Source: a virus
IMG/VR virus record: IMGVR_UViG_3300048793_000006
Location: 1 to 24,465 of that record
Length of the DNA: 24,465 nucleotides
Reading direction: 5' to 3' (one strand)
This document shows positions 131 through 18,806 of the stretch, one piece after another; positions within the stretch are counted from its first letter, which is position 1; each line of letters begins with the position of its first letter. Both the position numbers and the translations under genes were made by a program. The notes below the pieces were generated by a model, which saw only the letters and a program-made list of their open reading frames with translations, was not told the origin of the DNA and did no database searches.

Positions 131-340
131 ATGTCCGAGGGGAACGACGCCGAGATCGTCAAGGATAACGACGCCTCCAACGTCGTCGAATTCACGCCGA
201 AGCGCGAGTACGTGTGGGCACACACGAAGGGCTGCAACGGTGGGCAGGAGTTCTGGCTCCATCGAGACGGCTCTGTGCAATGCTGCGAGTGCAAGGCGTA
301 CATTCCGACGTTGTGTTGGGGGCATAAGGAGAAGGGATGA
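131..340 (+). CDS. Small zinc-ribbon protein (DG-hairpin type, copy 1)
   Basis: 69 aa. After a flexible acidic N-terminus and an FTPKREYVWAH segment come H31-x3-C35 and C51-x2-C54, separated by the hairpin FWLHRDGSV. These four positions are well placed to bind one zinc ion. C35, the F-x-L-x2-DG-x-V stretch, C-x-EC, the following Lys/Arg and a Tyr all match the protein at 5350-5556, which has Cys where this one has H31, so the two are homologous. Small proteins of this shape occur in many phages without a known role; that is general recollection, not a search result. An AGGGGG precedes the ATG, and the stop overlaps the tail-spike start (ATGA). A regulatory, assembly or nucleic-acid-binding role is possible but not shown. 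Confidence 0.82.
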   Translation: MSEGNDAEIVKDNDASNVVEFTPKREYVWAHTKGCNGGQEFWLHRDGSVQCCECKAYIPTLCWGHKEKG

Positions 341-2187
341 CCTTCGCCTCACACGCGATCCGGGTTGGCAGCGGCGGGGTGCCCGGCCCCGGAGCTCCCG
401 TACTAACGCTGGGGACCGTCATGTCAACATCCGTGGCCCTGAGTTGGACCGCATCGTCGTTCTACTACGGGATCGCGGCGTACCAGGTCTGGCGGTCTCA
501 GGGGTCGGCGGGTAACGCGCAGGTGATCGCGATCGTCGGCGGCGGGGCGCTGACGTACACCGACACGACGGTGGTAGCGGGGACGACGTACAGCTACTAC
601 GTGACCGCGACTGGGAATGGGTTTGGGAATCCGCAGAGTGCGCCTAGCAACACGGTGACTGCGACGCCGAGTGCCGGCACGTTCGACTTCTATATCAGCC
701 CGACCGGGCTCGATACGGACCCAGGCACACAGGCTAATCCGTGGTCGATCATGTCCATCAACTCATCTGCTTTGACGCCAGGGTCGACTGCTCAGCAGCG
801 AGCTAACGCCGCGCTGATGGCCGGCAAGAAAGTAGGTCTCCTGCCTGGCACCTACGTGTTGCCGCAGGGTCACTACGATCCGGTCGGTGGGCGCAGCAAC
901 ACGCTCGTCGTTACCGCTGGCGGCTCGTCAGGCTCGCCCACGACGTTCCAGTCCACGACGCCTCGTGCTGCGATCCTGACGCACTGGAACGGCTCATCCT
1001 ACGTGCAGAGCGATAACGGCGGCCATCCTGCCGTAGTGCTCAACTTCTCGGCCGACTGGTGCAGCCTCGTGGACGTCGCTTTGGACAAATGCACCGGCGG
1101 GGTGCAGACATGGGGCAACAACCACGTCTATAGCGGGTGCTCGTTCACGAACATTAGTGCCACCTTCGCAAATATCTACCTGAACGTCGTTGGTGGCGAC
1201 AACTTCGCGGCCATCGGTGGCGGCGGGGTGAATCAAAGCCCGCCGGCAGTCCTGCAGTACAGCGGGCTGACCGTCAGCAACTGCTATTTCTTCAACATCA
1301 CCAGTGCCGCCGCGGGGTACATAGGCAACTTCAACTGCAACTGCGTCGATCTGTTCGCACACGGCAACATCACGGTGCAGAACTGCGAAGCCAAGAACGT
1401 CTTTTCGCTGTTCTACCCCAAGGGGCAGTGCGGCGTATTCACTATTCAGAACAATTACGTCCACGACTGCAACGCAATGTTCCGCACCTTCAACGTCGCG
1501 TGGCCGGAGCTATGCTCGCCCACCGTGCCCGGCGCCAGATGCACGGTCCGCAACAATATCGGGTGGAATCTTGTCTGCGCGAGCCTCGACAGCGGCAACG
1601 CCGGACAGGTGGATACGGACATCTACAACAACACGTTTGGCGTGACTGCGGTCGGCAACGGCAATCAGTCGATCAACATCTATACGAACAACGACGACTT
1701 GAGCTACGGCAACTGGAGCGTAGCAAACGGTTTCCACGGCACGCCGGCCACGACGTGCACCTGGTACAACAATATTCTGTACCCGATCAACACGCCAACG
1801 GCAGGCTATTCGCAGTGGCGCTTCCGACCTTCCGGCAACGGCGACAGTCCTCCGCCCGGAAGGCCTCACGATCAGATTTTCACGCTCATCAACTTCAACG
1901 CCTACACCAACAAGGCGTCAAACTTCTTCAACGCGCTGGATGACTACAACACCGGGACCTCTTGGTCAGGCATCGCGGCGTGGCGCGCAGGAACTGGCTA
2001 CGACGGTAACTCAATCCAGGTCGACCCTCTGCTAGTTAACGAGGCCACGCCCGCCGTAGTCGGTGACTTCAAGCTGCAGGGCGGCTCCCCTTGTGTGCTG
2101 TCGGGAAGGGTGGGCGGACTTCTCGCGGGCGCTGCGTGTGACATTGGCGCTTGGGGACAGGGCGGGAATCCGGGAAAGAACTGGTAA
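337..2187 (+). CDS. Tail spike: fibronectin type III domain plus right-handed beta-helix
   Basis: 616 aa. Residues about 20-110 read as a fibronectin type III fold, with ALSWTAS, the AYQVWRS strand, the TYTDTTVVAGTTYSYYV region and a final SNTVTAT strand. From about 117 the motif FYISPTGLDTDPGTQANPW, followed by GKKVGLLPGTYVL, is the usual entry to a pectate-lyase-like right-handed beta-helix. The rest is Asn/Gly-rich, strand-turn repetitive sequence (VSNCYF, VQNCEAKNV, IQNNYVHDC, VRNNIGWN), typical of stacked coils. Such proteins are adsorption spikes that bind or depolymerise surface polysaccharide. No catalytic residues can be assigned by eye, so enzymatic activity is open. The start ATG overlaps the previous stop and follows AGGAGAAGG. 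The next gene starts at its stop codon (TAATG). Confidence 0.85.
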   Translation: MTFASHAIRVGSGGVPGPGAPVLTLGTVMSTSVALSWTASSFYYGIAAYQVWRSQGSAGNAQVIAIVGGGALTYTDTTVVAGTTYSYYVTATGNGFGNPQSAPSNTVTATPSAGTFDFYISPTGLDTDPGTQANPWSIMSINSSALTPGSTAQQRANAALMAGKKVGLLPGTYVLPQGHYDPVGGRSNTLVVTAGGSSGSPTTFQSTTPRAAILTHWNGSSYVQSDNGGHPAVVLNFSADWCSLVDVALDKCTGGVQTWGNNHVYSGCSFTNISATFANIYLNVVGGDNFAAIGGGGVNQSPPAVLQYSGLTVSNCYFFNITSAAAGYIGNFNCNCVDLFAHGNITVQNCEAKNVFSLFYPKGQCGVFTIQNNYVHDCNAMFRTFNVAWPELCSPTVPGARCTVRNNIGWNLVCASLDSGNAGQVDTDIYNNTFGVTAVGNGNQSINIYTNNDDLSYGNWSVANGFHGTPATTCTWYNNILYPINTPTAGYSQWRFRPSGNGDSPPPGRPHDQIFTLINFNAYTNKASNFFNALDDYNTGTSWSGIAAWRAGTGYDGNSIQVDPLLVNEATPAVVGDFKLQGGSPCVLSGRVGGLLAGAACDIGAWGQGGNPGKNW

Positions 2188-2939
2188 TGGCCATCATCTA
2201 CAACGATCCGCCGAGCGGCACGTACAAATCGACGTACGGCAGCGGAATATTCCCAGGTGCTAACGGAGGTAGCGGCGGAACGGATCCGCATTGGAACCTA
2301 GCCCAAGGCACCGCAACGACGAACTTCAACATCGACTCAGGTGCCGGCGGCAACCTGATCATGAGTGCTGGAAGTTCAGTCAATACTGTTATCTGGAGAG
2401 AAACCGCCACATGGACGCCCAGCCTCAGCCTGTGGTCTGAGATCACGCTCGCCAATGGAATTGGCACGTCGTCAACGCAGGAAGGGCCTGCGGTCGCGCT
2501 GCAATCCACCAACGGCACTTCGGATCTGTTCGGCTACATCATCAGGTTCCGCTACAACGGCAGCACCAGCCTCGACTTTACGTTTTACAACTACGCCAGC
2601 GGTTCGGTTACCGCAGTCACCGGAGGGGGGCCATTCACCTACAGCGGCGGCGCGGACATTCTTGCGCTGCAAATGGCCTACAACAGTTCGTCGAGCGTGA
2701 CGTTGACGGCGTTCCAAAACTACGTCGCACTCGGCACCGGCATCACCGACACCACGCTCGCCAGTGCCCTCATCACGAACGCCAACTCCATTTCAAGCCC
2801 CAGTGGCCTGTGGAGCTTCGTCGGCAATTCTGGTTTCGGTGACATCAAGAACATGCGCGGCGGCACGGGGCTCTATCCCGGCAGCGGTTCTGGCCCCACC
2901 GCTCCCACTGCAGCCACCCAGTGCATCGTGTTCCCGTGA
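2187..2939 (+). CDS. Beta-rich protein, probable tail-spike partner or lectin-like domain
   Basis: 250 aa. The ATG at 2187 shares its A with the TAA of the spike gene, so translation is likely coupled. An upstream in-frame ATG at 2151 would lie inside the spike gene and is not preferred. The sequence is rich in Ser, Thr, Gly and aromatics in alternating strands: IWRETATWTP, LWSEITLANG, GYIIRFRYNG, LDFTFYNYASG, ILALQMAYNS. This pattern recalls a concanavalin/LamG-type jelly roll, as seen in carbohydrate-binding tail proteins, but no family motif is certain. No signal peptide or membrane segment is visible. Position directly after the spike suggests a co-assembled adsorption component. The stop runs straight into the GAGGAG site of the next gene. 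Confidence 0.72.
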   Translation: MAIIYNDPPSGTYKSTYGSGIFPGANGGSGGTDPHWNLAQGTATTNFNIDSGAGGNLIMSAGSSVNTVIWRETATWTPSLSLWSEITLANGIGTSSTQEGPAVALQSTNGTSDLFGYIIRFRYNGSTSLDFTFYNYASGSVTAVTGGGPFTYSGGADILALQMAYNSSSSVTLTAFQNYVALGTGITDTTLASALITNANSISSPSGLWSFVGNSGFGDIKNMRGGTGLYPGSGSGPTAPTAATQCIVFP

Positions 2940-2946
2940 GGAGACC

Positions 2947-3279
2947 ATGAGCCAGAGAAGCCAGCGGACAGGCGGCGGCTACCTCCTGAATGACAATACC
3001 GCCTCCGGTGGCAAAAAAGAGGAAGCTGACATACTATGCTGCAAGCACTGCCAGAAGATCCTGTTCCTGCCGCCCGACGCACGGGCTGAAGAAAACAGGT
3101 TCTGCCGGCGGTGCAACGCCCCTATCTGCGGTCACTGCGCGACGAAGATGCTGACCGAAGGTTGCTCTCCGTTTCAGAAATGGATCGACGCGGAGGCTGA
3201 GGCCGGCTATCGTCGGGCGCAGAACCTGAGGGCGATGGGCTATGTAGGGGGCAGTTTGACTAGGGGCAAGTCCAGTTAG
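2947..3279 (+). CDS. Small protein with CxxC zinc knuckles
   Basis: 110 aa from the ATG at 2947, which has GAGGAGA directly upstream. A longer in-frame reading from 2764 would overlap the previous gene and is rejected. Cysteines form C32-x2-C35, C53-x2-C56 and C61-x2-C64, plus C73. This gives enough ligands for one or two zinc ions in a treble-clef or ribbon-like fold. After the last knuckle, an EGCSPFQKWIDAEAEAGY segment forms an amphipathic helix. The N-terminal 28 residues are polar and Gly-rich, probably disordered. It is one of five small Cys/His-rich proteins placed among the tail and packaging genes here. Function is unknown; nucleic-acid or protein binding is the general expectation for such knuckles. 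Confidence 0.78.
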   Translation: MSQRSQRTGGGYLLNDNTASGGKKEEADILCCKHCQKILFLPPDARAEENRFCRRCNAPICGHCATKMLTEGCSPFQKWIDAEAEAGYRRAQNLRAMGYVGGSLTRGKSS

Positions 3280-3282
3280 GAA

Positions 3283-3295
3283 GACAGGAGCTGTC
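3283..3295 (+). promoter_or_regulatory. Short hairpin carrying the ribosome binding site of the next gene
   Basis: GACAG (3283-3287), loop GAG, CTGTC (3291-3295) is a perfect 5-bp inverted repeat ending two bases before the ATG at 3297. The Shine-Dalgarno AGGAG (3286-3290) is partly in the stem and partly in the loop. Such a hairpin could modulate initiation, but five pairs with a three-base loop is marginal and may be chance. Confidence 0.3.
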
Positions 3296-3296
3296 C

Positions 3297-3533
3297 ATGC
3301 CGCGTGTGTACTCCGATCCCTACCACCATTTTGAGCTGAGCGCGGACGGCAAAACCTACAAGTGCGCTCACTGCGCCGCTGCCTATGACGTAGTCCCCGA
3401 TCCTGTGAACGGCAATACCTTCCACGGGGCACCGTCCACGTACCAACTACACCACGTCCTGCACCCGCAGCACGCAGAAGCGACGCTGATGCAGGAACAT
3501 TGTTCTGGAAAGGCGAATGGGGCAGCCGTCTAG
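3297..3533 (+). CDS. Small Cys/His protein, divergent DG-hairpin type
   Basis: 78 aa with AGGAG well spaced before the ATG. Residues 11-30 (HFELSADGKTYKCAHCAAAY) repeat the F-x-L-x2-DG ... C-x2-C ... Y layout of the small zinc ribbons at 131 and 5350. Here the first ligand pair is not Cys-rich: only the histidines of PYHHF precede the hairpin. The C-terminal half is rich in His (YQLHHVLHPQH) and has one more Cys (EHC). Zinc could be held by C23, C26 and histidines, or this copy may have lost the site. It lies between another Cys-rich gene and a beta-rich virion-type gene. The role is unknown. Confidence 0.72.
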   Translation: MPRVYSDPYHHFELSADGKTYKCAHCAAAYDVVPDPVNGNTFHGAPSTYQLHHVLHPQHAEATLMQEHCSGKANGAAV

Positions 3534-3564
3534 CACTCTCAGACCAGGAGCGGAGTAATCTTCA

Positions 3565-4029
3565 ATGCCCACATATTCAGGTAACAACGGCGCCTTCACC
3601 CCAGCGACCAATGCCGACAACTGGACTATCGACAGTCAGTCCTCTGGCGTCTACGGCAAGGTCGTCGAGTTCGGCTGGGGCGGACGACTCACCACCTCCA
3701 CCGCGTACCGCACCCGCTGGACGCGCCCGACCACGATCGGCTCAGGCGCCTTCACCGCGCTCACGATGGCGTTCAACAGCCCGAACTACATCACGCCGGG
3801 CTCACGCTTCGGCACCTTTGCGACACAGCCGGTGCTCGCGGCCGACCCCGCCGGCAACCTGCACGCGCAGGACTGGAACGCCAACGGCGGTCTCGGTTAC
3901 ATCGTGCTGCCGCTGAACGACCCGTGGCGCTACGTGAACGGCGTGCTCACCGGCCAGATCTCGTGCCGCAACATCCAGGGTACGGACGCGAGCGGGTCAA
4001 GCTATACCGTAGCGTTCGAGGAAGATTGA
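3565..4029 (+). CDS. Beta-rich 154-aa virion-type protein, function unknown
   Basis: 154 aa. The ATG at 3565 is preceded by GGAGCGGAG a little further away than usual. The protein begins with a YSGNNGAFTPATNADNW stretch, continues in short Gly/Thr/Ser-rich strands with many aromatics (VVEFGWGGRL, YRTRWTRP), and ends in SGSSYTVAFEED. There is no Cys cluster, transmembrane span or signal peptide. Size, composition and position between adsorption genes suggest a small capsid- or tail-surface protein, but no family can be named. The stop is followed by a 41-base gap holding an inverted repeat and the next ribosome binding site. Confidence 0.68.
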   Translation: MPTYSGNNGAFTPATNADNWTIDSQSSGVYGKVVEFGWGGRLTTSTAYRTRWTRPTTIGSGAFTALTMAFNSPNYITPGSRFGTFATQPVLAADPAGNLHAQDWNANGGLGYIVLPLNDPWRYVNGVLTGQISCRNIQGTDASGSSYTVAFEED

Positions 4030-4040
4030 TAGGGGAATCA

Positions 4041-4056
4041 AGGGCTTACTAGCCCT
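4041..4056 (+). promoter_or_regulatory. Intergenic hairpin upstream of the PASTA-domain gene
   Basis: AGGGCT (4041-4046), loop TACT, AGCCCT (4051-4056) is a perfect 6-bp inverted repeat with a four-base loop. It ends five bases before the AGGAGG (4061-4066) of the next gene. No T-run follows, so it is not an intrinsic terminator. An RNA processing or mRNA-stabilising hairpin is possible. Confidence 0.35.
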
Positions 4057-4070
4057 CGGCAGGAGGACTC

Positions 4071-5357
4071 GTGGCTTGGTTCCGCGGCAGCCAGTCCGAG
4101 TCCTATGCCAATGCCCATCCGAAGCCGTTCACGCTTCGCGGGCAGTCGGCAATCACGTACGCTCACGCGATCATGCAGCGCGCACTCGTGGCGCCGGAAG
4201 CTCCACCGGCGACACTGCGCGAGACCAACCCGTCACGCACCAGCCCGGCGCTCATCTCGATTCCAGCGCTGGCGTTCACCTCCAGTTGGGTGCGGGGAAA
4301 CCAGAACGAGGTTCTAGCCGCTAACTTCCCACGCCCGGTGGTCTGGTCCGGGTTCGTCCCGATCTCGGTCATCCCGCCGTTCCTGCGCTCGCCGCCGATC
4401 CTGTCGACGTTCCAAGACCCCAACTGGGCGCTGACTGGTGCGGGCAACATCTGGTATCCGGCGCCGACCCCGCTCGTCTATATCCCTCCGCAGCGCATGG
4501 AAGTGCGCCCGCAGGAACCGATCTCGTGGGACGTGCCGCGCTCGTGGACGTACACGCCTGCGCCCGTGGTCACTCCGCCGCCGCCGTTGGAGCCTCGGAT
4601 CAGCGCGCTGGAAGAACTGGTCAAGTCACCAGGGTATGTGTTCGTCCGTCCGGGAGGCACGCCGTCCGTCGTGCCAGTGGCGGCAGGCGTCGGGCTGCTC
4701 ACCGTCCGGCAGGAGGAACCGTCACTCACCCGTAACCTGCTCTCGTCCGTGACGTGGACCGCGCCGCAAGTCCAGCCGCCGGCATCGCCGGCCGCCCGGT
4801 TCATCACGGTCCGGCAGGAAAAACCACCAGAATTCCCGTTCTCGTTCTACACCGCGGGCCATGTCTTCCTGCAGGGCGTCCAGTTCGTCCTGCTACAGGA
4901 CGCGATCCAGAGCGCAGTGAATCTCGGCTTCATCGTCGAGTGCCAGGTCGTCGCTTGGAACTACAGCAACACGGTTCCCTACGGATACGTCATCTCGCAG
5001 TCGATACAGGCCGGCACGTCGGTCTCTCCGAACACGGTCATCTACTTCACGGCGAGCTTGGGTCCGCCTCAGAACGCTGCGACGACGATCGTGCCGAGTC
5101 TCGTGGGACTGCCCATGTGGCAGGCGCTAGATGCCGTCACACAAGCTCAGCTCGTGATGCAGAACAATCAGTTCGCGTACTCGTCGGTAGTGCCAGCCGG
5201 CAGCGTCATCAGTCAGACCGTCTCGGCTGGAACGCTCGTGTTGGCGGGTACACAGATCAACCTGATATTCTCGCTCGGCGCGGCGCCTGTGCCGATCACG
5301 ATCACCGTACCGGATCTCACTCGGCAGCCGATTCCGTTCAAGCCTGCGAATGACTGA
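4071..5357 (+). CDS. PASTA-domain virion-type protein with degenerate Arg-Gln-Glu-Pro repeats
   Basis: 428 aa starting at GTG 4071, four bases after a strong AGGAGG. Residues about 266-331 and 340-404 are two PASTA-type domains. Each has a helix (DAIQSAVNLGF; QALDAVTQAQL), then P-x-G-x-VISQ (PYGYVISQSIQAG; PAGSVISQTVSAG), and a final strand (TVIYFTASLG; QINLIFSLG). VPSLVGLP opens the second, and a truncated third start, ITVPDL, follows at 411-416. The N-terminal 260 residues are Pro-rich with a recurring motif: FRGSQSE 4, VRGNQNE 74, VRPQEP 145, VRQEEP 212, VRQEKP 247. PASTA domains are best known from Gram-positive PknB kinases and PBPs, where some bind peptidoglycan fragments. Here a tail or surface role in cell-wall contact is inferred. 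The stop overlaps the next gene by eight bases. Confidence 0.8.
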   Translation: MAWFRGSQSESYANAHPKPFTLRGQSAITYAHAIMQRALVAPEAPPATLRETNPSRTSPALISIPALAFTSSWVRGNQNEVLAANFPRPVVWSGFVPISVIPPFLRSPPILSTFQDPNWALTGAGNIWYPAPTPLVYIPPQRMEVRPQEPISWDVPRSWTYTPAPVVTPPPPLEPRISALEELVKSPGYVFVRPGGTPSVVPVAAGVGLLTVRQEEPSLTRNLLSSVTWTAPQVQPPASPAARFITVRQEKPPEFPFSFYTAGHVFLQGVQFVLLQDAIQSAVNLGFIVECQVVAWNYSNTVPYGYVISQSIQAGTSVSPNTVIYFTASLGPPQNAATTIVPSLVGLPMWQALDAVTQAQLVMQNNQFAYSSVVPAGSVISQTVSAGTLVLAGTQINLIFSLGAAPVPITITVPDLTRQPIPFKPAND

Positions 5358-5556
5358 CAAACCCCCTGCTGAAAACAAGATCCTGCCGTTCAGACATAGG
5401 GAGCCAGTTCCTATGCGCTGGCAGTGCCCGCCGCCGTGCAACTCGACCCGCTTCACGTTGTGGACGGATGGCCACGTACATTGTAGTGAGTGCCGCAGCT
5501 ACCACTATAGAATAACGTTTACGGTCGATGAGACAGAGATGACGGGCATGCTATGA
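5350..5556 (+). CDS. Small zinc-ribbon protein (DG-hairpin type, copy 2)
   Basis: 68 aa. C26-x3-C30 and C45-x2-C48 bracket the hairpin RFTLWTDGHV, the layout seen at 131-340 with a full set of four cysteines. Identities with that copy include Trp before the first ligand pair, CN after it, F-x-L, DG, V, C-x-EC, a basic residue and Tyr. The short C-terminal strand ITFTVDETEM is unique to this copy. The gene overlaps the PASTA gene at its start (ATGACTGA) and the terminase at its end (ATGA), so expression should be coupled to terminase. It occupies the slot where a small terminase is often found, but it has no recognisable helix-turn-helix. A packaging role is only a positional guess. Confidence 0.82.
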   Translation: MTDKPPAENKILPFRHREPVPMRWQCPPPCNSTRFTLWTDGHVHCSECRSYHYRITFTVDETEMTGML

Positions 5557-7442
5557 GCTTCGATCTCAATCATTTCCAGTCCTTCTGCAATCAACTAAAA
5601 ATTGATTCCAAGGAATCCGGTTTGTGTCGCCTTGGCCCACGCATGTACGACGCGCAGAAGATTGTCATGCGCGGCATCGCTCAGGGGCTTGAGGAAGGCG
5701 TACACGACTTCAAGATCCTGAAAGCCCGACAGCTCGGCATGTCGTCGATCTTTCTTGCGCTCGACATGTACTGGATGTTCCAGAACCGCGCGCTGACCGG
5801 CGCACTCATCACGCACGATGACAAGGCGAAGCAGCAGTTCCGCACCACGTTGCAGCTCTACTACGAAGGTCTGCCGGATGAATACAAGCGATCGAAACCC
5901 GATGACAACCGCGACCAATGGGTACTCGGTAATGGATCGCGTCTGCAATTTCGTGTGGCGGGAATTAAGAAGTCCCCTACATCGGCATCACTGGGACGAT
6001 CTGGAGCCTTGGCCTACCTGCACGCCACAGAAGTCGCGTTCTGGGCTGACACCGATGGCATCGAATCGCTCAAAGCCTCTCTCGCTGAGACTAATCCCAA
6101 CCGGCTCTACGTCTACGAGTCCACCGCCAACGGCTTCAACCACTACGAAGACATGTGGAACGAAGCCAAGCGGGCGGTAACGCAGCGCGCGATCTTCGTA
6201 TCATGGTGGGCGAAGGGCGACTACTCGGTGGCAGAGGATTCTCCGCAGTACCGCATGTACTTCGGGCGCAACGGACGTATAACCAAGGACGAGCGCGAGT
6301 GGATTCGCGAGGTCAAGACACTGTACGGGCAGGAAATCACCAACCGGCAGATAGCGTGGTACCGCTGGATCACCGAGGAAAAGATGGTCGATGAGGCGAT
6401 GCGAGAACAGGAGTTCCCGCACACCGAGTACCGGGCGTTCGTTGCCACCGGTAGCCAGTTTTTTACCTCAGTTCCGCTCTCAGAGGCCATAAAAGAGGTC
6501 AAATCAGGGGTCGAACCGCAGCGTTATATGGTGAAAACCGGACGCGAATTTACCGATACCACCGTCGATGAAGTGGGCAAAAAGGGCGGAAATCTGCTCA
6601 TTTGGCAGGAAAAAGTCGATGGTGCGACCTATTGCCTCGGCGCCGACCCTGCGTATGGCTCAAGTCCCGATGCAAATAACTACTGCATCTCCGTCTGGCG
6701 ATGCTACGCGAACCGCATCGAGCAGGTAGCCGAGTTCGTACAGGTCGAAATGACGACCCGGCAGTTCGCGTGGGTCATCGTCTACCTCGGCGGCTACTAC
6801 GGGCTGTGCTCCACGAACTGCGAAGTCAACGGTCCGGGGCAGGCGGTGCTGAATGAAATCGAGAACATGCGCCGCGAGCGTCACATCCCGCACGGCAGGG
6901 GGCCGCTGCTCAAGGATGTGATGACGCACTACCGCGCGTACCTGTATCGCAAGTACGACTCGATCTACGGCGCACCCTCAGCCCGGCATACGCTCACCAC
7001 GGAGACGATGAAGGAGCGGATGCTCAACATCCTCAAGGACAATTTCGAGTCTGGCATGGCGGTCGTGCGCAGTCTGCCCATGCTGAACGAGATGAAGGAT
7101 CTGCGCCGCATCGACGGTGGCACACCGGAGGCAGGCTCAGGTGGCAACGATGATCGCGTGATGGCCGCCTCACTCGCTCTGCTCGTGTGGAACGATCAGA
7201 TGCGCATGGGGCTCATCAGGGCTCAGGTAATGTGGGAGGCGGAAGTCAAGCGCCTGCGCGAAAGTGCAGATGGCCGGCCGCAGTCAGGAGCGGACAAGAC
7301 CATGAACCGCATGGTCACTAAGTACTTGTCGAACATAGGCTATTTGAAAGACCCGTCGAAAGATGTACCGTATCGCAAGACGAAGGTCGCTCCGATCAAG
7401 GTCGACGTGAAACCTGGAGTCGTTCATGGACGGCCAAACTAA
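5553..7442 (+). CDS. terL: Terminase large subunit
   Basis: 629 aa, ATP-driven DNA packaging motor and nuclease. N-terminal ATPase: a Walker-A-like KARQLGMSS (57-65), of the variant Q-x-G form common in phage terminases, a Walker-B-like strand ALAYLHATEVAFW with E160, and a coupling motif YESTANG (188-194). C-terminal RNase-H-like nuclease: D365 in GADPAYG, E424 in CEVNGPGQ, and D533/D534 in NDDRVMA, the three acidic positions expected for two-metal cleavage. The length fits the family once its long Lys/Arg-rich tail is counted. The start is the ATG overlapping the stop of the small zinc-ribbon gene. The next gene begins immediately after the TAA. Confidence rests on the motifs and on the portal two genes downstream. 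Confidence 0.95.
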   Translation: MSFDLNHFQSFCNQLKIDSKESGLCRLGPRMYDAQKIVMRGIAQGLEEGVHDFKILKARQLGMSSIFLALDMYWMFQNRALTGALITHDDKAKQQFRTTLQLYYEGLPDEYKRSKPDDNRDQWVLGNGSRLQFRVAGIKKSPTSASLGRSGALAYLHATEVAFWADTDGIESLKASLAETNPNRLYVYESTANGFNHYEDMWNEAKRAVTQRAIFVSWWAKGDYSVAEDSPQYRMYFGRNGRITKDEREWIREVKTLYGQEITNRQIAWYRWITEEKMVDEAMREQEFPHTEYRAFVATGSQFFTSVPLSEAIKEVKSGVEPQRYMVKTGREFTDTTVDEVGKKGGNLLIWQEKVDGATYCLGADPAYGSSPDANNYCISVWRCYANRIEQVAEFVQVEMTTRQFAWVIVYLGGYYGLCSTNCEVNGPGQAVLNEIENMRRERHIPHGRGPLLKDVMTHYRAYLYRKYDSIYGAPSARHTLTTETMKERMLNILKDNFESGMAVVRSLPMLNEMKDLRRIDGGTPEAGSGGNDDRVMAASLALLVWNDQMRMGLIRAQVMWEAEVKRLRESADGRPQSGADKTMNRMVTKYLSNIGYLKDPSKDVPYRKTKVAPIKVDVKPGVVHGRPN

Positions 7443-7895
7443 GTGATTACGAAGGAATGGCAGTGCAGCGGCCACGGATATTTTGAAGCCGCAGCCGCTG
7501 ACGGCGAAGTGCCGAAGTGCCCACACGGATGCGCCAAGCGTTTCGTCAAGCGTGTGTTCCTGACAGCCCCTTCGATCCGAAGCGCACGCACCACGAACTC
7601 CGACAAGACGATCCGCAATCTCGCTCAGGACTTTCGTATGAGCGATGTCAAGAATGACAAGGCCGGCGGCTCCGTCATGGACGCCATGCGTAAGGGCAAC
7701 CCTCAGAAACCCTCATGGGGCCAGATCCCGCGCAACGCCAAGAACCTCAAGGATGTGGGCTTCGGCGGCGGCACGGGTGGAGCCATGAGCGACGGGCTCG
7801 CGCACACGAAGACAGTCGTCGGGAATCTGCCGGGTCCTAGGCCGGTGTTCCAAGGACGAGATCCGGGCGGCTACGGTGAGCCCAAGCCCGTATGA
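7443..7895 (+). CDS. Small protein with N-terminal Cys/His ribbon, between terminase and portal
   Basis: 150 aa from a GTG directly after the terminase TAA, with no strong Shine-Dalgarno, so it probably relies on reinitiation. Residues 7-30 hold C8, H11, C26, H28 and C30 around YFEAAAADGEV (motifs WQCSGHGYFEA and VPKCPHGC), a zinc-site candidate again built on a DG turn. A basic stretch, KRFVKRVFLTAP, follows. The remainder is polar and Gly-rich (GFGGGTGGAMSDG) and ends in PGPRPVFQGRDPGGYGEPKPV, probably disordered. Small proteins of this kind sit beside terminase and portal in various phages, but no function is established that I can name. The stop overlaps the portal ATG (ATGA). Confidence 0.75.
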   Translation: MITKEWQCSGHGYFEAAAADGEVPKCPHGCAKRFVKRVFLTAPSIRSARTTNSDKTIRNLAQDFRMSDVKNDKAGGSVMDAMRKGNPQKPSWGQIPRNAKNLKDVGFGGGTGGAMSDGLAHTKTVVGNLPGPRPVFQGRDPGGYGEPKPV

Positions 7896-9544
7896 AGTTC
7901 CCTGAGAAAAAAGAACTCCTGAATTTCTATCAGGGCATCAGGGACAAGTGCTTTGCCTCGCGTAACGAGCGGGCCGAGCGGTACGACATGTACCGCGCCT
8001 ACTACCTGAGAGGGTCGGTAGAAAACGACTGCGGCGGCTTCAACAAGATCTACCCGCACATCGACCAGCTCACCTCGTTCATGTACTCGCAGGAGACCAC
8101 GAAGTTCGCAGTCACCATCGGCGCGAACGTCTCCAGCAGCGAACTCGGCAAGGTCCCGGCGCTCAACCAAGCTGTCAATGACGAGTGGCATTCATCGAAC
8201 GGCGACATCGTATTCGGCATGTGCCTGACGTGGGCGTTCGTCTACGGCACGGAACTCATCAAGCTCCGATGGAACAAGGAACAGGTTGAGCCGTTTCCCG
8301 TCGACCCACGCAACTTCGGCGTCTACCGAGAGGACGTGCAGGGACTGCACCGGCAGGAAGCCGTCGCTCACGAGTACCACGTCCCGCGCTCGCAACTGGA
8401 GCGAGAGCTTCAGGACCACCCGCGTAAGGCGGACATCCTGAGCAAGCTCACGTTCTCTGCCATACCCGCGCAGGAACAGTCATCGACGATGAGTGAAGTC
8501 GTCATCACGGCCACGCAGCCGCAGATCACTGGCGACGTCAACTTCGACCTCAACTCCTCCATCGACTACATGCCGATCGTCAAGGAGGACATGGCGAAGC
8601 TGTGCGAACTCTACATCTGGGACGACGACGAGAGTGACTATCGAGTCGTCACGATGGGCGACCCGACCGTTCTCATCTACGACCGCTGTCAGGGCGAGGC
8701 GCATCTGTTCGTCAAGGCAGAACTGCCGTTCATCCAGGTCTGCCCGACACCGACGCCTGGGTACTTCTGGGGTATCGCCGAGGTTGAGCGCCTGAAGGAC
8801 ATTCAGGAGCTGCGCAACAAGCGCATGCGGCAGATCGATCACATGATGGAGTTGCAGGCGGAGCCGCCCGTCTATGCCTCAGGCTTCGACGGCGACGTGT
8901 CCGAGATGCAGACCTCGATGAACACTCCGGGCGGCATGGTCAACACGGAGAACATGGGCGCGAAGCTTGACAAGGTATCGCCCACGATCCCCGACGACAT
9001 GTTCAAGGAGATCACCCAGTACGACATGATGTTTGAGGAGATGTCTGGCATCACCAACGTCATGCAGGGCAGGGGCGAGGCGGGCGTACGGTCACAGTCA
9101 CACGCAAGCAAGCTAGCCCAGCTAGGCTCGTCGCGCGCTAAGAAGCGCGCCCTCATCGTAGAGGATTGTCTGGAGAAAATGGCGACGCTGTACCTGCACA
9201 TCCTGAAGGTCTACGACGGCGAGAACAGCTATCGCTCCGAGGACGGCACCGAGTTCATCGCGCAGCAGTTCACCAAGGACTTTGTGGTCAAGGTCGACAG
9301 CCACTCGAACAGCCCGATCTTTGCCGAGGACCAGCGCGCGATGGCGTTCGAGCTGTTCAAGGCGAAGGCGATCACGCGCGAGAAGCTTCTCGAACTGCTT
9401 GACGTTCCGATGAAGCAGTTGCTAAAGCAAGACCTCAAGAATAAGATCGAACCGGCAGAAGCCAAGGCGGCTCAACAGCAGCTCGCTGCCGAGGCACAAG
9501 GTAAAGCGGCCAAACACGGGAAGCCGGCGCGGCCAAACGCATAG
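7892..9544 (+). CDS. Portal protein
   Basis: 550 aa. The dodecameric portal forms the DNA entry and exit vertex and is the docking site for terminase and adaptor. Supporting features are: position two genes after TerL and before the scaffold/coat genes; an N-terminal helical segment with many aromatics (RYDMYRAYYLRG); a PVDPRNFGVYRED strand around 134-147, typical of the portal wing; a long stem-type helix around 299-322 (RLKDIQELRNKRMRQIDHMM) followed by AEPPVYASGF; and a helical C-terminus (crown/barrel) rich in Ala, Gln and Lys. Length is within the usual range. Coupled ATGA start with the upstream gene. No frameshift is visible. Confidence 0.88.
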   Translation: MKFPEKKELLNFYQGIRDKCFASRNERAERYDMYRAYYLRGSVENDCGGFNKIYPHIDQLTSFMYSQETTKFAVTIGANVSSSELGKVPALNQAVNDEWHSSNGDIVFGMCLTWAFVYGTELIKLRWNKEQVEPFPVDPRNFGVYREDVQGLHRQEAVAHEYHVPRSQLERELQDHPRKADILSKLTFSAIPAQEQSSTMSEVVITATQPQITGDVNFDLNSSIDYMPIVKEDMAKLCELYIWDDDESDYRVVTMGDPTVLIYDRCQGEAHLFVKAELPFIQVCPTPTPGYFWGIAEVERLKDIQELRNKRMRQIDHMMELQAEPPVYASGFDGDVSEMQTSMNTPGGMVNTENMGAKLDKVSPTIPDDMFKEITQYDMMFEEMSGITNVMQGRGEAGVRSQSHASKLAQLGSSRAKKRALIVEDCLEKMATLYLHILKVYDGENSYRSEDGTEFIAQQFTKDFVVKVDSHSNSPIFAEDQRAMAFELFKAKAITREKLLELLDVPMKQLLKQDLKNKIEPAEAKAAQQQLAAEAQGKAAKHGKPARPNA

Positions 9545-9572
9545 AGGGGCGGCATAGTTCAAGGAGAGCAGC

Positions 9573-9614
9573 ATGGCACGACGCAAGCGGCGCGGTCGCA
9601 AACACAAGCGCTAA
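9573..9614 (+). CDS. Possible 13-residue Arg/Lys-rich peptide
   Basis: ATG 9573 to TAA 9612-9614 encodes MARRKRRGRKHKR: nine Arg/Lys and one His in 13 residues. AAGGAG at 9561-9566 lies six bases upstream of the ATG, which is close to ideal and otherwise unexplained, since the next large gene starts only at 9719. The last two codons and the first base of the stop form the left arm of a perfect hairpin (9606-9623). It could be a nucleic-acid-binding peptide, a leader peptide acting through translation itself, or chance. Arg-rich short frames are easier to obtain in GC-rich DNA, so confidence is moderate. Confidence 0.5.
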   Translation: MARRKRRGRKHKR

Positions 9615-9623
9615 GTAGCGCTT
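9606..9623 (+). promoter_or_regulatory. Perfect hairpin across the stop codon of the 13-residue frame
   Basis: AAGCGCT (9606-9612), loop AAGT, AGCGCTT (9617-9623): a perfect 7-bp inverted repeat. The left arm is the last two codons plus the T of the stop, so a ribosome finishing the peptide would melt it. There is no T-run. Its right arm could instead pair with AAGCGC at 9659-9664. Confidence 0.45.
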
Positions 9624-9633
9624 CAACCGAACT

Positions 9634-9707
9634 GGGCCGCGCCGATATGAGCCTGACTAAGCGCCCTCACTCGCTCCCGTCTTAGCTCCCCGGCGCCGGC
9701 CCTTTTT
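9634..9707 (+). terminator. Structured region ending in T5, terminator-like
   Basis: Left arm GGGCCGCGCCG (9634-9644) pairs with CGGCGCCGGCCC (9691-9702), giving 11 G-C pairs with one bulged C at 9696, and TTTTT follows directly at 9703-9707. The 46-base interior can form a second stem, CTAAG (9657-9661) with CTTAG (9681-9685), extended by GAG/CTC across a bulge. A GC stem plus T-run is the signature of an intrinsic terminator, although the loop is much larger than usual and the T-run short. It lies between portal and the head genes, where partial termination or attenuation could tune expression. No other gene occupies 9615-9718. Confidence 0.45.
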
Positions 9708-9718
9708 AGAGAGGCACG

Positions 9719-10147
9719 ATGGCAGTTCCCCCAGGTGCGATGGCTGGCATGACTGGTGGCAAGCCCGCCGGTCCTCCAATGCCGCCACCGCCCGGCGCGC
9801 CACAGCCAGGAGCCGGTCCTGCCGGCTCACCGATGTCGACTCCGCAGGCGCCCGGCGGCATGCTGGAAGGCGCGAAACTCAAGGTCATGACCTCGATCAA
9901 GACGCTGGAAATGGCGCTCGGCACGTTCGGCTCGACGTCAGAAGAAGGCAAAGCGGTCATGAAGGCGATCAGTGCCCTTGCCAAAGCCTTCGGAAAACAT
10001 GAAGATGAGTCCAAGGAATTGATGCCCGCTGAGATCAAACAGCTCATGGCTGGTCTCGCAGGCCCAGGAGCTCCGCCCGGACCACCGGCAGGCGGCGCGC
10101 CTCCTCCGGGGGGTCCTCCGCCGGGTGCTCCACCACAGGTAGGGTAG
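9719..10147 (+). CDS. Head-module protein with Pro/Gly-rich ends and a helical core
   Basis: 142 aa, ATG with AGAGG upstream. Residues 1-48 are almost entirely Pro, Gly, Ala, Met and Gln (GPPMPPPPGAPQPG). About 49-112 form a charged amphipathic helical core (LKVMTSIKTLEMALGTF, GKAVMKAISALAKAFGKH, MPAEIKQLMAGLAG). The last 30 residues are again Pro/Gly repeats (GAPPGPPAGGAPPPGGPPPG). It sits between portal and the scaffold/coat genes, so a minor head or assembly role is inferred. The flanks would be disordered. No family is recognised, and it could also act as an extra scaffold or portal-associated factor. Confidence 0.72.
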   Translation: MAVPPGAMAGMTGGKPAGPPMPPPPGAPQPGAGPAGSPMSTPQAPGGMLEGAKLKVMTSIKTLEMALGTFGSTSEEGKAVMKAISALAKAFGKHEDESKELMPAEIKQLMAGLAGPGAPPGPPAGGAPPPGGPPPGAPPQVG

Positions 10148-10151
10148 CGAC

Positions 10152-10358
10152 ATGCCTTCAGGTCAGCCGGGCTTCAAGCCGACAACCGCCAAGATCCTCG
10201 ACCCGCAGGACAACTCGACGACGGGCCAACTCATCTGCAAGCCGCCGCGCTATGCGATGGGGATCAGCGGCCTGAGTTCTGCCGCGAAGGCGTTCTACAA
10301 GAACCCGTTCGGCATCAGGCGTCCGGGCGCCTCCGAACACAAAGTGCCGATGAAGTAA
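10152..10358 (+). CDS. Small basic hypothetical protein of the head module
   Basis: 68 aa, four bases after the previous stop. The sequence is polar with few hydrophobic clusters: PGFKPTTAKILDPQDN, then CKPPRYAMGISGLSSAAKAFYKNPFGIRRPG, ending in a basic tail KVPMK. One Cys, no membrane span. The ribosome binding site is weak (GGGTAG), so coupling to the upstream gene is likely. I do not recognise the family. Tight packing between the Pro-rich gene and the scaffold candidate supports it being real and part of head assembly. Confidence 0.62.
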   Translation: MPSGQPGFKPTTAKILDPQDNSTTGQLICKPPRYAMGISGLSSAAKAFYKNPFGIRRPGASEHKVPMK

Positions 10359-10361
10359 CAC

Positions 10362-10892
10362 ATGGGCGCACCCTCACTCGAAGACCTCTCACCAGAGCAG
10401 ATCAAGAAGCTCGCAGGCTTCGCCAACTCCGTCCTCAACGGAGACCCGAAGCTGTCGAAGGAAGTGCGCCGCATCGTCAAGAAGCACGACGCTTCATACA
10501 ACGCCCCCGACTTGGAACTGGAAGACCAGATTCAGAAACTCGGTGAAGAAGAGGCGAAGAAGCGCGAGGAAATGCGTGAGGAGTGGAACAAGGATCGCCG
10601 CAACGCCTCATGGGAGCGTGAGCAGGCAAAGATGCGCTCCTCTGGCTACGAGCCGGAGTACATCGAAAAGATCATGAAGGACGAGCAGATCGCCTCCGTC
10701 GATACCGCGATCAAGTTCGCGGACATGCAGGCTCAGATCGCTCCCGCCACCCCGCCAGGCTTCAACCCGTCACCGCTACCTGCCGCGACTGGGGAAGACA
10801 AGAAGCTGTGGGAGAATCCGAAGCAGTGGCAGACGAATACGCTGCACAAAGCGATTGATGAACTCAGGGGGAAGAAAGCAATCGGCCGTTAG
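10362..10892 (+). CDS. Probable scaffolding protein
   Basis: 176 aa, highly charged and almost wholly helical. LEDLSPEQIKKLAGFANSVL opens it. Residues about 50-110 are a Glu/Lys/Arg coiled coil (LEDQIQKLGEEEAKKREEM, EEWNKDRRNASWEREQAK), followed by a Pro-rich hinge (APATPPGFNPSPLPA) and a basic C-terminal helix (LHKAIDELRGKKAIGR). Phage scaffolds commonly combine a coiled coil with a short basic C-terminal helix that contacts coat, and they lie directly before the major capsid gene, as here. No protease motif is seen. The Shine-Dalgarno is poor, with the ATG three bases after the previous stop, implying coupled translation. Assignment is by position and composition, not by a sequence signature. 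Confidence 0.7.
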   Translation: MGAPSLEDLSPEQIKKLAGFANSVLNGDPKLSKEVRRIVKKHDASYNAPDLELEDQIQKLGEEEAKKREEMREEWNKDRRNASWEREQAKMRSSGYEPEYIEKIMKDEQIASVDTAIKFADMQAQIAPATPPGFNPSPLPAATGEDKKLWENPKQWQTNTLHKAIDELRGKKAIGR

Positions 10893-10917
10893 TCATATGT
10901 AGGAGATGACTGCGAAA

Positions 10918-10956
10918 GGGGCAGACATTACAAATTAGTTTTCAGGAGTCTGTCCC
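10918..10956 (+). promoter_or_regulatory. Leader hairpin abutting the major capsid start codon, ribosome site in the loop
   Basis: GGGGCAGAC (10918-10926) pairs with GTCTGTCCC (10948-10956): nine pairs, one of them G-U, with no bulge. The 21-base A/T-rich loop (10927-10947) contains nearly all of the AGGAG (10944-10948), and the stem ends on the base before ATG 10957. The structure could present or mask the ribosome site and protect the 5' end of a processed capsid mRNA. The 64-base gap 10893-10956 is one of the longer ones in the window; no convincing -35/-10 promoter is visible in it. Confidence 0.5.
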
Positions 10957-11964
10957 ATGCCGATGCCAGGCGTTGGTGTAGTTCCCACAGGGAATGTATT
11001 CAACGAATTAACTTACGTCACGAGGCGGGCATTTATACCAAGCCTCGTCGTCCAGATTTACAACGCATCGCCTGCGATGGCGTCGTTGCTGGCGAACTCG
11101 CACACGGCGACGGGCGGTATCTCCAGCGTATCGGTGCCATTACAGGGCGCGCCTTACGTCAACGCTCAGTGGGGCGACTACTCGGCCTCGTTCAACTCGC
11201 CGCCGTCTTTGCAGGGCACGTACCTTGCGGAGTTCGACCTCAAGCTGCTGATCGTGCCGATCCCGTTCTACGGGATGGAAGGCGCGCTGCAGATGGACCA
11301 TGCGATCGTGCCGCTCATCGACGCGCGCATGCACGACTCGACGATGGCCGCGATCGACACGTTCTCGCAGTCGCTGTTCAACAACTACACGAACAACCAG
11401 CAGATCATCGGCCTGCCGGGCGCCGCTGACGACGGCACCAACCTCGTCACGTACGGCAACCAGAACCGCACGAACAACACCTGGTGGCAGAGCAAGGTCT
11501 ACAACGCAGGCGCGGTCGCACCGACCCGCAAGCTGATCTTCCAGTACATCGCTGGCGTCAACCGCTGGGGTGCTGAGATCCCGACGTTCGGTCTGTGCGG
11601 CTTCGGCACATTCGCCTCGCTGGCGAATGACTACATCGGCAACGAGAGCTACCAGATCCAGCCGGGTCGCGGGTTCGACACGGATGCCGACAGGCCACGC
11701 TCAGGGTTCCGCGCGCTCGACGTCGCAGGCGTTCCGGTCTACGCCGACCCGTACTGCCCGGAAGGCATCGTCTATCTGCTCAACTCGAACTATCTGAACC
11801 TCTACGTTCACGAGGCGGCCAGCTTCAACTTCACGGGCTTCGAGTCCATGTTGCCCAGCTTCCAGATCGGTAGCATCGGCGCGGTGCTGACGCTGTGCGA
11901 GCTGGTCTGCACGAAACCTCGAACGCAGGGCAGAGTGTTTAACTTTACGTTCTTGACGCTGTAG
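10957..11964 (+). CDS. Major capsid protein (HK97-fold type)
   Basis: 335 aa. Placement after portal and scaffold and before the connector genes is typical. The sequence has an N-terminal arm (TYVTRRAFIPSLVVQIYNASPAMASLL); a spine-type helix region with GALQMDHAIVPLIDARMHDSTMAAIDTFSQSLF; and a C-terminal segment (ALDVAGVPVYADPYCPEGIVYLLNS, about 251-275), where a strand after a VPVYADP turn is characteristic of the A-domain in many tailed-phage coats. It finishes in beta strands (GAVLTLCELVCTKP, RVFNFTFLTL). No protease or signal cleavage site is evident. Expression is probably high: AGGAG is well spaced and a strong leader hairpin precedes it. Family assignment rests on pattern and context. 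Confidence 0.86.
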   Translation: MPMPGVGVVPTGNVFNELTYVTRRAFIPSLVVQIYNASPAMASLLANSHTATGGISSVSVPLQGAPYVNAQWGDYSASFNSPPSLQGTYLAEFDLKLLIVPIPFYGMEGALQMDHAIVPLIDARMHDSTMAAIDTFSQSLFNNYTNNQQIIGLPGAADDGTNLVTYGNQNRTNNTWWQSKVYNAGAVAPTRKLIFQYIAGVNRWGAEIPTFGLCGFGTFASLANDYIGNESYQIQPGRGFDTDADRPRSGFRALDVAGVPVYADPYCPEGIVYLLNSNYLNLYVHEAASFNFTGFESMLPSFQIGSIGAVLTLCELVCTKPRTQGRVFNFTFLTL

Positions 11965-11974
11965 GAGCGCCGCC

Positions 11975-12649
11975 ATGCCAATCGGCAAACTTGGAATTCT
12001 AGGCGTCGACTACGGCTTCACTCCGGAGTTGACGATCTCGCAGTTCGTCATTCCGGCAGGTGCCGGCGCGACCTACGCAGCTGCGAACAACATCGCGACC
12101 ATCACGACGAACGCGGCGCACGGGTTGACGTTCAATCCGGCTGCCAACATACCGCCGAACTACTTCGTGACCTTCGGTGGATCAACGTCGGCGCTCGTCG
12201 GTCAGGGCATTCTGGTCGGCAACGTCTTCCGCATCCTGTCCATCCCGTCCGCCACGACGTTCACGATCTACTGCACGATCACGTCTGGCACGGTCACGTC
12301 GATGACGGTCATCCCGGTGTTCTTCCACCCGTTCATCGCGCCCCCGTTCAGCATCTGGACTGGTGGTCCTGCACAGCCGGCCGGCACGCTCTACCCGCCA
12401 GCGCAGCTCGCGCAGGGCTCGGTCAACATGGTGCTCGGGGCCAACCTCGTCTGCTCGTTCAACCCGGACAACAAGCTGCTGCTGCTTGATGCGGCATCGA
12501 CTCCGGCGGCCGGAACTCCCAGCACGGCGCCGGTATTACGCACGCTTGCTGCGGCGTCCACTAGCGCACAGGTAGATTTCTCGTCCCCGCAGACGTTGCT
12601 TCAGGCGTCAGGCACGACGGCGAACTCGTTCTTGTCAGTCATCGAGTAG
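11975..12649 (+). CDS. Beta-rich head protein, possible decoration or head-fibre protein
   Basis: 224 aa, with the GGAG site overlapping the coat-gene stop, so it should be co-expressed with coat. The sequence alternates short hydrophobic strands with Gly/Ala/Thr turns (TITTNAAHGLTF, YFVTFGGSTSALVGQGI, VFRILSIPSATTFTIYC, TVTSMTVIPVF). It contains a Pro-rich stretch (FHPFIAPPFSIWTGGPAQPAGTLYPP as two pieces) and ends in LLQASGTTANSFLSVIE. No Cys pairs or membrane spans. Immediate downstream location of the coat gene is where decoration proteins are often encoded. The fold and function remain inferred. Confidence 0.68.
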   Translation: MPIGKLGILGVDYGFTPELTISQFVIPAGAGATYAAANNIATITTNAAHGLTFNPAANIPPNYFVTFGGSTSALVGQGILVGNVFRILSIPSATTFTIYCTITSGTVTSMTVIPVFFHPFIAPPFSIWTGGPAQPAGTLYPPAQLAQGSVNMVLGANLVCSFNPDNKLLLLDAASTPAAGTPSTAPVLRTLAAASTSAQVDFSSPQTLLQASGTTANSFLSVIE

Positions 12650-12680
12650 TTCAAGGGAATAGACAAAGGGGTAAGGGGCA

Positions 12681-13067
12681 ATGTCTGCGAATCCACTCGA
12701 TCTCGGTCAGTTCGTCAAGATCAGGAACGGAACGGACAAGGCGATCAAAGGTCGGCACGGCGGCGAGGAGTACGTCTTCCCCGTCGGGGAAACCAAGGTC
12801 GTCCGCTACGAGACAGCGTGCCACATCTTTGGCCTTGACCAGGAAGACAAGACGCCCGCCCTCGCGCGCCTCGGGTGGGCAAGATCGTCGGATGAGATCG
12901 AGGCGGGGCTTGAACGCCTTCACAAGATTTCCTTCGATGAGTTATCTTTGGAAACGTCCAGCGACGCGCGCCCCTTCGTGAACGCTGGGGACAAGGCGGC
13001 GGCAGAGGGACAACCTTCGGCCGCCGCCGAGTCTTTAGACCCGGAGGCTGGCGACGTAGACCTGTAA
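12681..13067 (+). CDS. Small conserved-type head protein with an N-terminal beta domain
   Basis: 128 aa, ATG after AAGGGG. Residues 8-55 form a compact beta unit (QFVKIRNGTDKAIKGRHGGEEYVFPVGETKVVRYE) leading to a helix TACHIFGLDQEDK. The pattern NGTDK ... F-P-x-G-x-x-x-V ... A-x-HIFG occurs in small proteins next to coat or connector genes of other phages, by recollection. The middle (LARLGWARSSDEIEAGLERLHKISF) is helical. The last 35 residues are acidic and Ala-rich (DKAAAEGQPSAAAESLDPEAGD), likely disordered. A head or connector accessory role is inferred from position. Confidence 0.7.
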   Translation: MSANPLDLGQFVKIRNGTDKAIKGRHGGEEYVFPVGETKVVRYETACHIFGLDQEDKTPALARLGWARSSDEIEAGLERLHKISFDELSLETSSDARPFVNAGDKAAAEGQPSAAAESLDPEAGDVDL

Positions 13068-13083
13068 GTTAAATGGAGGCGCG

Positions 13084-13731
13084 GTGCTCAGTACGTACAT
13101 CACGCAAGTACAGCGCCTCCTGCACGATCCAAACGCTCAGTTCTGGTCAGTCAGCGAACTAACCGACTACATCAACGAGGCTAGGAATCGCGTAGCGCAG
13201 GACACTAAGTGCCTGCGGCAGCTCATCACGAACGCCTCAACCGGGATCACACTGGTTGCCGGTCAGGAGCTCTACCAGAACGCCACGTTCATCCCGCCCG
13301 CGTTTCAGCCGTACCTGTTCAGCATCCAGTCGATCCATCTCTACTGGGGCAACACCCGCTGGCCGCTGTTCTTTTTCTCGTTCACCGACTTCAACGCCCG
13401 GATGCGAGCGTGGAACAACCTGCAACAGCGACCGCTAGCTTGGTGCCGAATGGGGGCACTGGCGTTCTACGTAGGCCCGATACCTGACCAGAACTACGCC
13501 ATCGACATCGACATGTCGATCGTGCCCAACGCGCTGACGAGCGACGCGACGCCTGAGCAGCTTCCTGTCCCGTTTCAGGAGCCCGTCAAGTACTACGCCG
13601 CGCATCTGGCGAAGTTCCGCGAGCAGGCGATGGGCGAGGCTGCGGTGTTTGAGAACCAGTACAAGACGAGACTGAGGGCTAGCGCGGTCGCATTCAACAG
13701 CAACATGACTCCCAACCCGTATCTTGGCTGA
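13084..13731 (+). CDS. Head-tail adaptor protein (P22 gp4-like / phage adaptor family)
   Basis: 215 aa from GTG 13084, with TGGAGG eight bases before. The opening L-x-x-YITQVQRLLHDPNAQFWSVSELTDYINEARNRVAQDT is the classic start of podoviral adaptor proteins: a helix, a W-S/T-D-x-EL-x-x-YINEA motif and a second helix. The middle has strands with aromatics (YLFSIQSIHLYWG, WPLFFFSFTDF). The end returns to helices (EPVKYYAAHLAKFREQAMGEAAVFENQYKTRL as two parts), where a Y-A-A-x-x-A-K-x-x-x-Q-x-x-x-E-A-x-x-F-x-x-x-Y pattern is typical. In the virion it would form a ring under the portal and receive the hub. The gene lies four bases before the hub gene, matching the P22 order 4 then 10. Confidence 0.82.
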   Translation: MLSTYITQVQRLLHDPNAQFWSVSELTDYINEARNRVAQDTKCLRQLITNASTGITLVAGQELYQNATFIPPAFQPYLFSIQSIHLYWGNTRWPLFFFSFTDFNARMRAWNNLQQRPLAWCRMGALAFYVGPIPDQNYAIDIDMSIVPNALTSDATPEQLPVPFQEPVKYYAAHLAKFREQAMGEAAVFENQYKTRLRASAVAFNSNMTPNPYLG

Positions 13732-13734
13732 GTC

Positions 13735-15300: not shown

Positions 15301-15308
15301 GTGTAATC

Positions 15309-16484: not shown

Positions 16485-16487
16485 GAC

Positions 16488-16838
16488 GTGGCATACACCG
16501 GCGGATTTCTGACCCTGTTTCCGAGCTACCAGGATGAGTCTGGCCGCAAGGACTTCCAGCTCATGCACTACCTGCGTCACAAGATGTACGCGCAGGCTGC
16601 CGCGCGCGCGGGCGTTGCACTGTACACGCCAGACCTGACCGCCAACATCGACGCAGACTGGTTCCAGCAGCACTGGCAGGCGCACGTCGCGCTCGATCGC
16701 ATCCAACGCACCGGGCTCGGCAACACCATCGCCGCCATCGACGTGAGCGAGTGGCAGGCAGAGGGCGACTACAACGACTGGCACAACACGAATGCGTTCC
16801 TGCACTCGCGCATAGAGCAGGCTTTAGGGCTCACCTGA
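16488..16838 (+). CDS. 116-aa helical protein, function unknown
   Basis: 116 aa from GTG 16488, three bases after the fibre stop, with no clear Shine-Dalgarno, so translational coupling is likely. The sequence is helical with many His, Trp and Asp: DFQLMHYLRHKMYAQAAARAG, DWFQQHWQAHVALDRIQRT, IAAIDVSEWQAEGDYNDWHN, then AFLHSRIEQALGLT. The pattern of spaced histidines, a central I-x-x-hydrophobic-D and a final H-x-x-I-x-x-A-L-G-L resembles small phage proteins of unknown role, by recollection only. Its stop shares a base with the next start (TGATG). Position before the ejection proteins suggests a virion or assembly role. Confidence 0.68.
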   Translation: MAYTGGFLTLFPSYQDESGRKDFQLMHYLRHKMYAQAAARAGVALYTPDLTANIDADWFQQHWQAHVALDRIQRTGLGNTIAAIDVSEWQAEGDYNDWHNTNAFLHSRIEQALGLT

Positions 16839-18805: not shown

Positions 18806-18806
18806 C

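Follow-up and report, generated by a model that had tools for sequence, protein, structure and literature searches.

The window, by which we mean the whole stretch of DNA analyzed here, is a virus record of 24,465 bases that encodes an SU10-type portal (PF23899), a major capsid protein of phrog_9953, and a terminase. Among annotated genomes, the nearest come from two Manatee Spring phages, MW202753 and MW202825, whose capsid proteins are 58-61% identical to that of the window. The window phage is a member of a large and widespread family of uncultured tailed phages of freshwater type, with hundreds of contigs in IMG/VR. The genes from position 5553 onward (packaging, capsid, and connector) are common to the relatives, whereas the module at 131-5556 is not. 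When this module was compared with the first set of family loci, the tailspike-like gene found no relative there and the four genes that follow it no significant ones. The last large gene of the module encodes P0001, a protein with C-terminal PASTA domains (Table 1). Two small zinc-ribbon-like proteins with the motif C-x(n)-[FYW]x[LVIF]xxDGx[VI]xCxxC are encoded at 131-340 and 5350-5556, flanking the adsorption module, and a zinc-ribbon-like counterpart lies near position 11023 of a related phage, L189, between its PASTA gene and its terminase.

Table 1. Features of the adsorption module and the adjoining terminase gene in the window
Feature	Position	Strand	Basis
Tailspike-like protein	337..2187	+	fn3 E 3.8e-4, under curated cut-off; beta-helix-like by reading only
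Variable-module genes (2190-2939, 2875-3279, 3297-3533, 3565-4029)	2190..4029	+	
PASTA protein P0001	4071..5357	+	ORF and translation; 428 aa, GTG start
N-terminal Pro-rich region, aa 1-262	4071..4856	+	16% Pro, weakly repetitive
PASTA unit 1, aa 274-331	4890..5063	+	Local HMM bounds; model vs 2mgv
PASTA unit 2, aa 339-403	5085..5279	+	Local HMM bounds; model vs 3ouv
C-terminal tail, aa 404-428, with VPDL stub	5280..5354	+	Last-unit alignment
Small zinc-ribbon-like protein	5350..5556	+	Motif search; between PASTA gene and terminase
Large terminase (TerL)	5553..7442	+	44-45% identity to MW202753/MW202825 terminase large subunits; marks locus

The start codon of P0001 is preceded by a ribosome-binding site, GGAGGA. 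The protein matched the Pfam family PF03793 over two stretches (E 7.9e-22; 77.4 bits, cut-off 23.2), and when the units were scored one by one on the DNA they reached 37.3 and 46.6 bits, each above the cut-off. A sequence-only reading of the window had proposed two C-terminal PASTA domains at residues 266-331 and 340-404, close to the HMM bounds, as well as a proline-rich protein, and the search and the composition in Table 1 bear out both. A phmmer search of the PDB with P0001 retrieved the Staphylococcus aureus PrkC/Stk PASTA structures 3py9 and 3m9g (E 1-3e-4), while no PHROGs family matched and an IMG/VR pattern search with P0001 as the query gave no match.

PASTA domains are best known from bacterial cell-wall kinases. 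PASTA was the only Pfam family matched by P0001, with no second family and no Ig-like domain, and the kinase domain and membrane span that would stand ahead of a kinase PASTA array were both absent by Pfam and hydropathy. No membrane span was predicted, no stretch was strongly hydrophobic (the highest 19-aa hydropathy was 1.57), and the hydropathy scan revealed no signal-peptide-like segment. The composition of P0001 is low in charge and resembles that of the other tail-type proteins of the window.

One alternative is that the gene comes from contaminating host chromosome, or from part of a bacterial PASTA kinase gene joined to the record by misassembly. The unannotated phage-collection records MT835764, MT836719, OR848722, and MT838740 proved to be bacterial chromosome contigs carrying PASTA kinases (PknB/PrkC) or kinase-like PASTA tails; these were the four PASTA hits of that collection checked one by one, the rest being unannotated as well. 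The gene for P0001, however, lies inside a phage contig beside a terminase and encodes no kinase domain, and the recurrence of the same arrangement in independent contigs, described below, contradicts such an origin, which we regard as highly improbable.

In the PASTA fold, a single helix packs against a small beta sheet. An AlphaFold model of residues 262-428, for which 12 phage PASTA rows were aligned, had a mean pLDDT of 84.6; this part is the usable model, as the full-length single-sequence model had a pLDDT of 33. In a Foldseek search of the PDB, the top matches to the model were all PASTA proteins (3py9, E 1.2e-9). Using VIA-align, unit 1 (model residues 3-71) superposed on the PonA2 PASTA domain 2mgv with a Z of 9.4 and an rmsd of 1.8 Å, and unit 2 (model residues 75-142) on PASTA domain 3 of PknB, 3ouv, with a Z of 11.0 and an rmsd of 1.7 Å. 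Both C-terminal units are thus predicted to adopt the PASTA fold, at less than 2 Å rmsd from single solved domains. Two-domain alignments gave large rmsd values, which in this model show only that the angle between the domains differs or is uncertain. The best structural matches to the tandem in BFVD were proteins of uncultured Caudovirales phages (E 4e-8 to 4e-4), such as the 760-aa A0A6J5NDH4, entered under the name 'PASTA_pknB domain containing protein'.

In the first 100 related records scanned, no PASTA domain exceeded the cut-off. Scanning IMG/VR with a PASTA alignment, we found the same-family phage L188/L189, whose terminase, portal, and capsid genes are syntenic with those of the window. 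Shortly ahead of its terminase, L189 encodes an 804-aa protein that combines three PASTA units with an Ig-like domain of the He_PIG family and is 35% identical to P0001 over 145 aa (E 3e-13), the alignment reaching the terminal stub (VPDL in P0001, VPNI in L189). A capsid scan seeded with L189, combined with a PF03793 scan of 50 records, added G114, G116, G121, G131, and the near-identical pair G128 and G130. In six lineages, the window included, the gene for a protein ending in PASTA shares the strand of TerL and precedes it by 0-640 bp: the two genes overlap by 4 bp in G130 and G131 and are separated by 196 bp in the window, 446 bp in G114, 491 bp in G113, and 636 bp in G116. In a seventh lineage, G121, a one-PASTA protein is encoded about 6 kb upstream of TerL, and a legume-lectin gene adjoins TerL instead. 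The terminase and PASTA genes of G114 are inverted together relative to the portal.

Two side observations concern these lineages. The G121 protein (13388-13918 of locus L275) contains VIDSNGNPVIDSNGNP repeats within and ahead of its PASTA unit. In G114 (positions 3000-20000, locus L277), the inversion relative to the portal and capsid genes takes in the genes upstream of the PASTA gene as well, and it may be real or an effect of assembly.

Overall, PASTA was found in 8 of the 46 distinct terminase groups whose upstream sequence extended for 1.5 kb or more, two of the eight being the same contig and the lineages therefore numbering seven, a proportion inflated by the seeding of the last scan with a PASTA carrier. 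Most other relatives in the family lack a PASTA protein, which is hence dispensable for the family. Genes neighboring it in the relatives' module encode Lectin_legB, chitobiase-C, GH5 (cellulase), and Ig-like domains, and fn3 occurs in the window's module. The assignment of P0001 to an adsorption module, proposed from the sequence of the window, is supported by these lectin, GH5, and Ig-like neighbors and by the position of the gene between the tailspike-like gene and the terminase.

Across the lineages, the PASTA part forms the conserved C-terminal end of the protein. The last units are 25-52% identical, and behind them the protein ends in a stub with the pattern hydrophobic-x-Pro-x, such as VVVPNI, TVVPTV, or TLPKVTYP. 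The segment VPDLTRQPIPFKPAND, previously taken for a third PASTA domain cut off near its start, has such counterparts after the last unit of the relatives and so is no broken domain; judged from these alignments, the C-terminal stub of P0001 is a short tail common to most relatives, with no truncation. A frameshift extension of a third unit found no support, either in the window, whose next frame encodes a CxxC protein, or in L189, where the following frames contain no PASTA.

The number of PASTA repeats varies from one to four and the N-terminal modules are exchanged. He_PIG is found in G113 and G131, an IPT-like segment in a further N-terminus, a short leader in G114, and almost nothing in G116, whose 148-aa protein consists almost entirely of two PASTA units; G113 and G130 share an N-terminal segment (E 5e-6). 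The proline-rich, weakly repetitive N-terminal region of P0001 contains an internal repeat, FRGSQSESYANAHPKPFTLRG / VRGNQNEVLAANFPRPVVWSG, that was equalled in 4 of 200 shuffles. This region had no relative below E 0.6 in tblastn comparisons with the family loci and matched no known virion-anchoring domain. Since conservation is on the PASTA end, this end may be where the protein docks and not its tip.

These findings bear on whether P0001 belongs to the particle at all. It might instead be a soluble or secreted phage protein, acting, for example, on host wall signaling during infection, and such a role would suit a protein that resembles no known virion anchor, that in G116 is reduced to PASTA, and whose domain the family can do without. 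Against it, P0001 has no signal-peptide-like or strongly hydrophobic segment, the genes lie in an adhesin and packaging module and not among lysis or early genes, and elsewhere baseplate and tail proteins carry PASTA fusions. We consider a role off the virion unlikely.

The fusions are found in IMG/VR phages outside the family. In L184 and L185, two PASTA units follow an N-terminal region without assignment and precede a DUF2612 domain (phrog_587, 'structural protein'), and the gene adjoins baseplate J; the L184 protein (2123-4234) is 703 aa long, with DUF2612 at the C-terminus and the two PASTA units inserted. L182 has one PASTA unit after a lectin-like Laminin_G_3 domain, in a gene that follows the tape-measure gene, and L181 has two units in an 1101-aa protein that is tail-hub-like by reading only. 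In L186 (9806-10201), a gene between a capsid-protease fusion and the portal encodes a possible head decoration protein, 131 aa long and ending in PASTA. Phages thus use PASTA in more than one kind of structural setting.

Insertion between other tail-protein domains, as in L184, L181, and L182, is what one would expect if PASTA were a passive spacer, a rigid stalk of adjustable length within an adhesin and with no ligand of its own; a stiff spacer was also the alternative named in the sequence-only reading. The variation in repeat number, the surface poor in lysine and arginine, and the linear form of solved PASTA arrays (PMC3601408) point the same way. In most members, however, PASTA stands at the free C-terminus with nothing beyond it to hold out, unless that C-terminus is docked. 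A purely passive spacer seems to us possible but rather doubtful.

The sequence-only reading had suggested a cell-wall-sensing tip, that is, PASTA binding muropeptides or uncross-linked peptidoglycan at adsorption or during passage through the wall. Precedents are found in PrkC, whose recognition of DAP-containing muropeptides depends on Arg500 (PMC3601408), and in PknB, whose PASTA domain binds mDAP lipid II (PMC6428115). The window units contain no lysine or arginine, either over residues 266-404 or in each unit, and hence no arginine-type ligand contact like that of PrkC Arg500. Lysine and arginine made up 1.1% of 19 family units and 1.0% of six other phage units versus 8.8% of 15 bacterial units, a small set drawn mostly from Gram-positive kinases. 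This low content disfavors arginine-dependent muropeptide binding of the PrkC type. Against wall binding it is an indication, not a proof, since the bacterial set is small and the window's other tail-type proteins are low in charge too.

The hosts bear on the same question. Nine genome-collection contigs with related capsids were binned mostly with proteobacteria, whose peptidoglycan is not exposed, and singly with Balneolaceae, Saccharibacteria, Chloroflexi, and Verrucomicrobia. A PASTA protein exceeded the cut-off in one of the nine, the Balneolaceae genome. A search for the Rz lysis gene (PF03245), used as a test for a Gram-negative host, gave nothing above the cut-off. The likely hosts look Gram-negative, although bins are weak evidence for host assignment. 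Given the missing basic residues, the finding that PASTA is the conserved end of the protein, and these hosts, the proposal of a wall-sensing tip is not supported, and we judge it improbable.

Our preferred reading, which we hold to be somewhat probable, is that P0001 is an accessory adsorption protein of the virion surface, in which PASTA serves as stalk or dock and the display modules at the N-terminus can be exchanged. It draws on the recurrence of a PASTA-ending protein upstream of TerL in six lineages, on homologous PASTA C-termini joined to swapped N-termini, on module neighbors that include Lectin_legB, GH5, and fn3, on the fusion of PASTA to structural proteins in unrelated phages, and on the low charge of P0001 and its lack of a strongly hydrophobic span. 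With the PASTA end conserved and the N-terminus variable, a receptor-binding tip fits less well than a stalk or dock, and the linearity of solved arrays (PMC3601408) argues for a stalk. The C-terminal tandem would be rigid and act as a stalk or as a docking segment, with the N-terminal part serving as an exchangeable display or attachment module. P0001 would hold these variable modules off the particle, in the manner of T4 Hoc, and might contact cell-surface or extracellular glycans weakly and reversibly before the tailspike commits. Here we infer the location on the virion, the orientation, the weak glycan binding, and the benefit to adsorption. Three observations count against the virion-surface role: the PASTA-only copy in G116, so that either an N-terminal anchor is not universal or this copy is a remnant; the N-terminus of P0001, which matches no known anchoring domain; and the dispensability of PASTA, with none above the cut-off in the 100 relatives of the first scan.

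Phage surface proteins reuse Ig-like domains. Sequence and recurrent position suggest that the PASTA fold is reused likewise in this phage family, and single cases extend such reuse to baseplate, tail, and head-region genes. More broadly, and only tentatively, PASTA may be a general and largely undescribed decoration or docking fold of tailed phages that has lost its basic residues and serves for binding other than to muropeptides or as an assembly dock. If so, it would serve alongside adhesins linked to the terminase, within proteins of the baseplate and tail, and close to capsid genes. Whether phage PASTA is a dock, a spacer, or a binder is a testable question, and 'PASTA' in a phage should not be read as 'peptidoglycan sensor'.

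P0001 resembles the bacterial PASTA proteins (PF03793; PknB/PrkC/StkP, PBP2x/PBP1) in profile, fold, and tandem arrangement. Unlike them, it has no kinase, membrane span, or PBP part and almost no basic residues, lies in a phage gene module, and ends in a stub where another unit would follow. The uncultured Caudovirales PASTA proteins of BFVD/UniProt match the window tandem in structure but are known only as database entries, some of which name the domain; no paper describing them, or PASTA in phage virions, was found in the literature searched. The DUF2612/phrog_587 protein of L184 is likewise a phage structural protein with two PASTA units, yet these are internal, its DUF2612 C-terminus is encoded next to baseplate J, and it belongs to a different phage group. 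In T4 Hoc and Ig-like decorated proteins, the C-terminal part is conserved and the N-terminal domains vary (PMC10385173). The P0001 family is similar to these Hoc-type proteins in being a string of small beta-rich domains with a conserved C-terminus and variable N-termini, dispensable and sporadic. In fold the family differs from these proteins, its conserved part being PASTA and not an Ig-like or Hoc domain.
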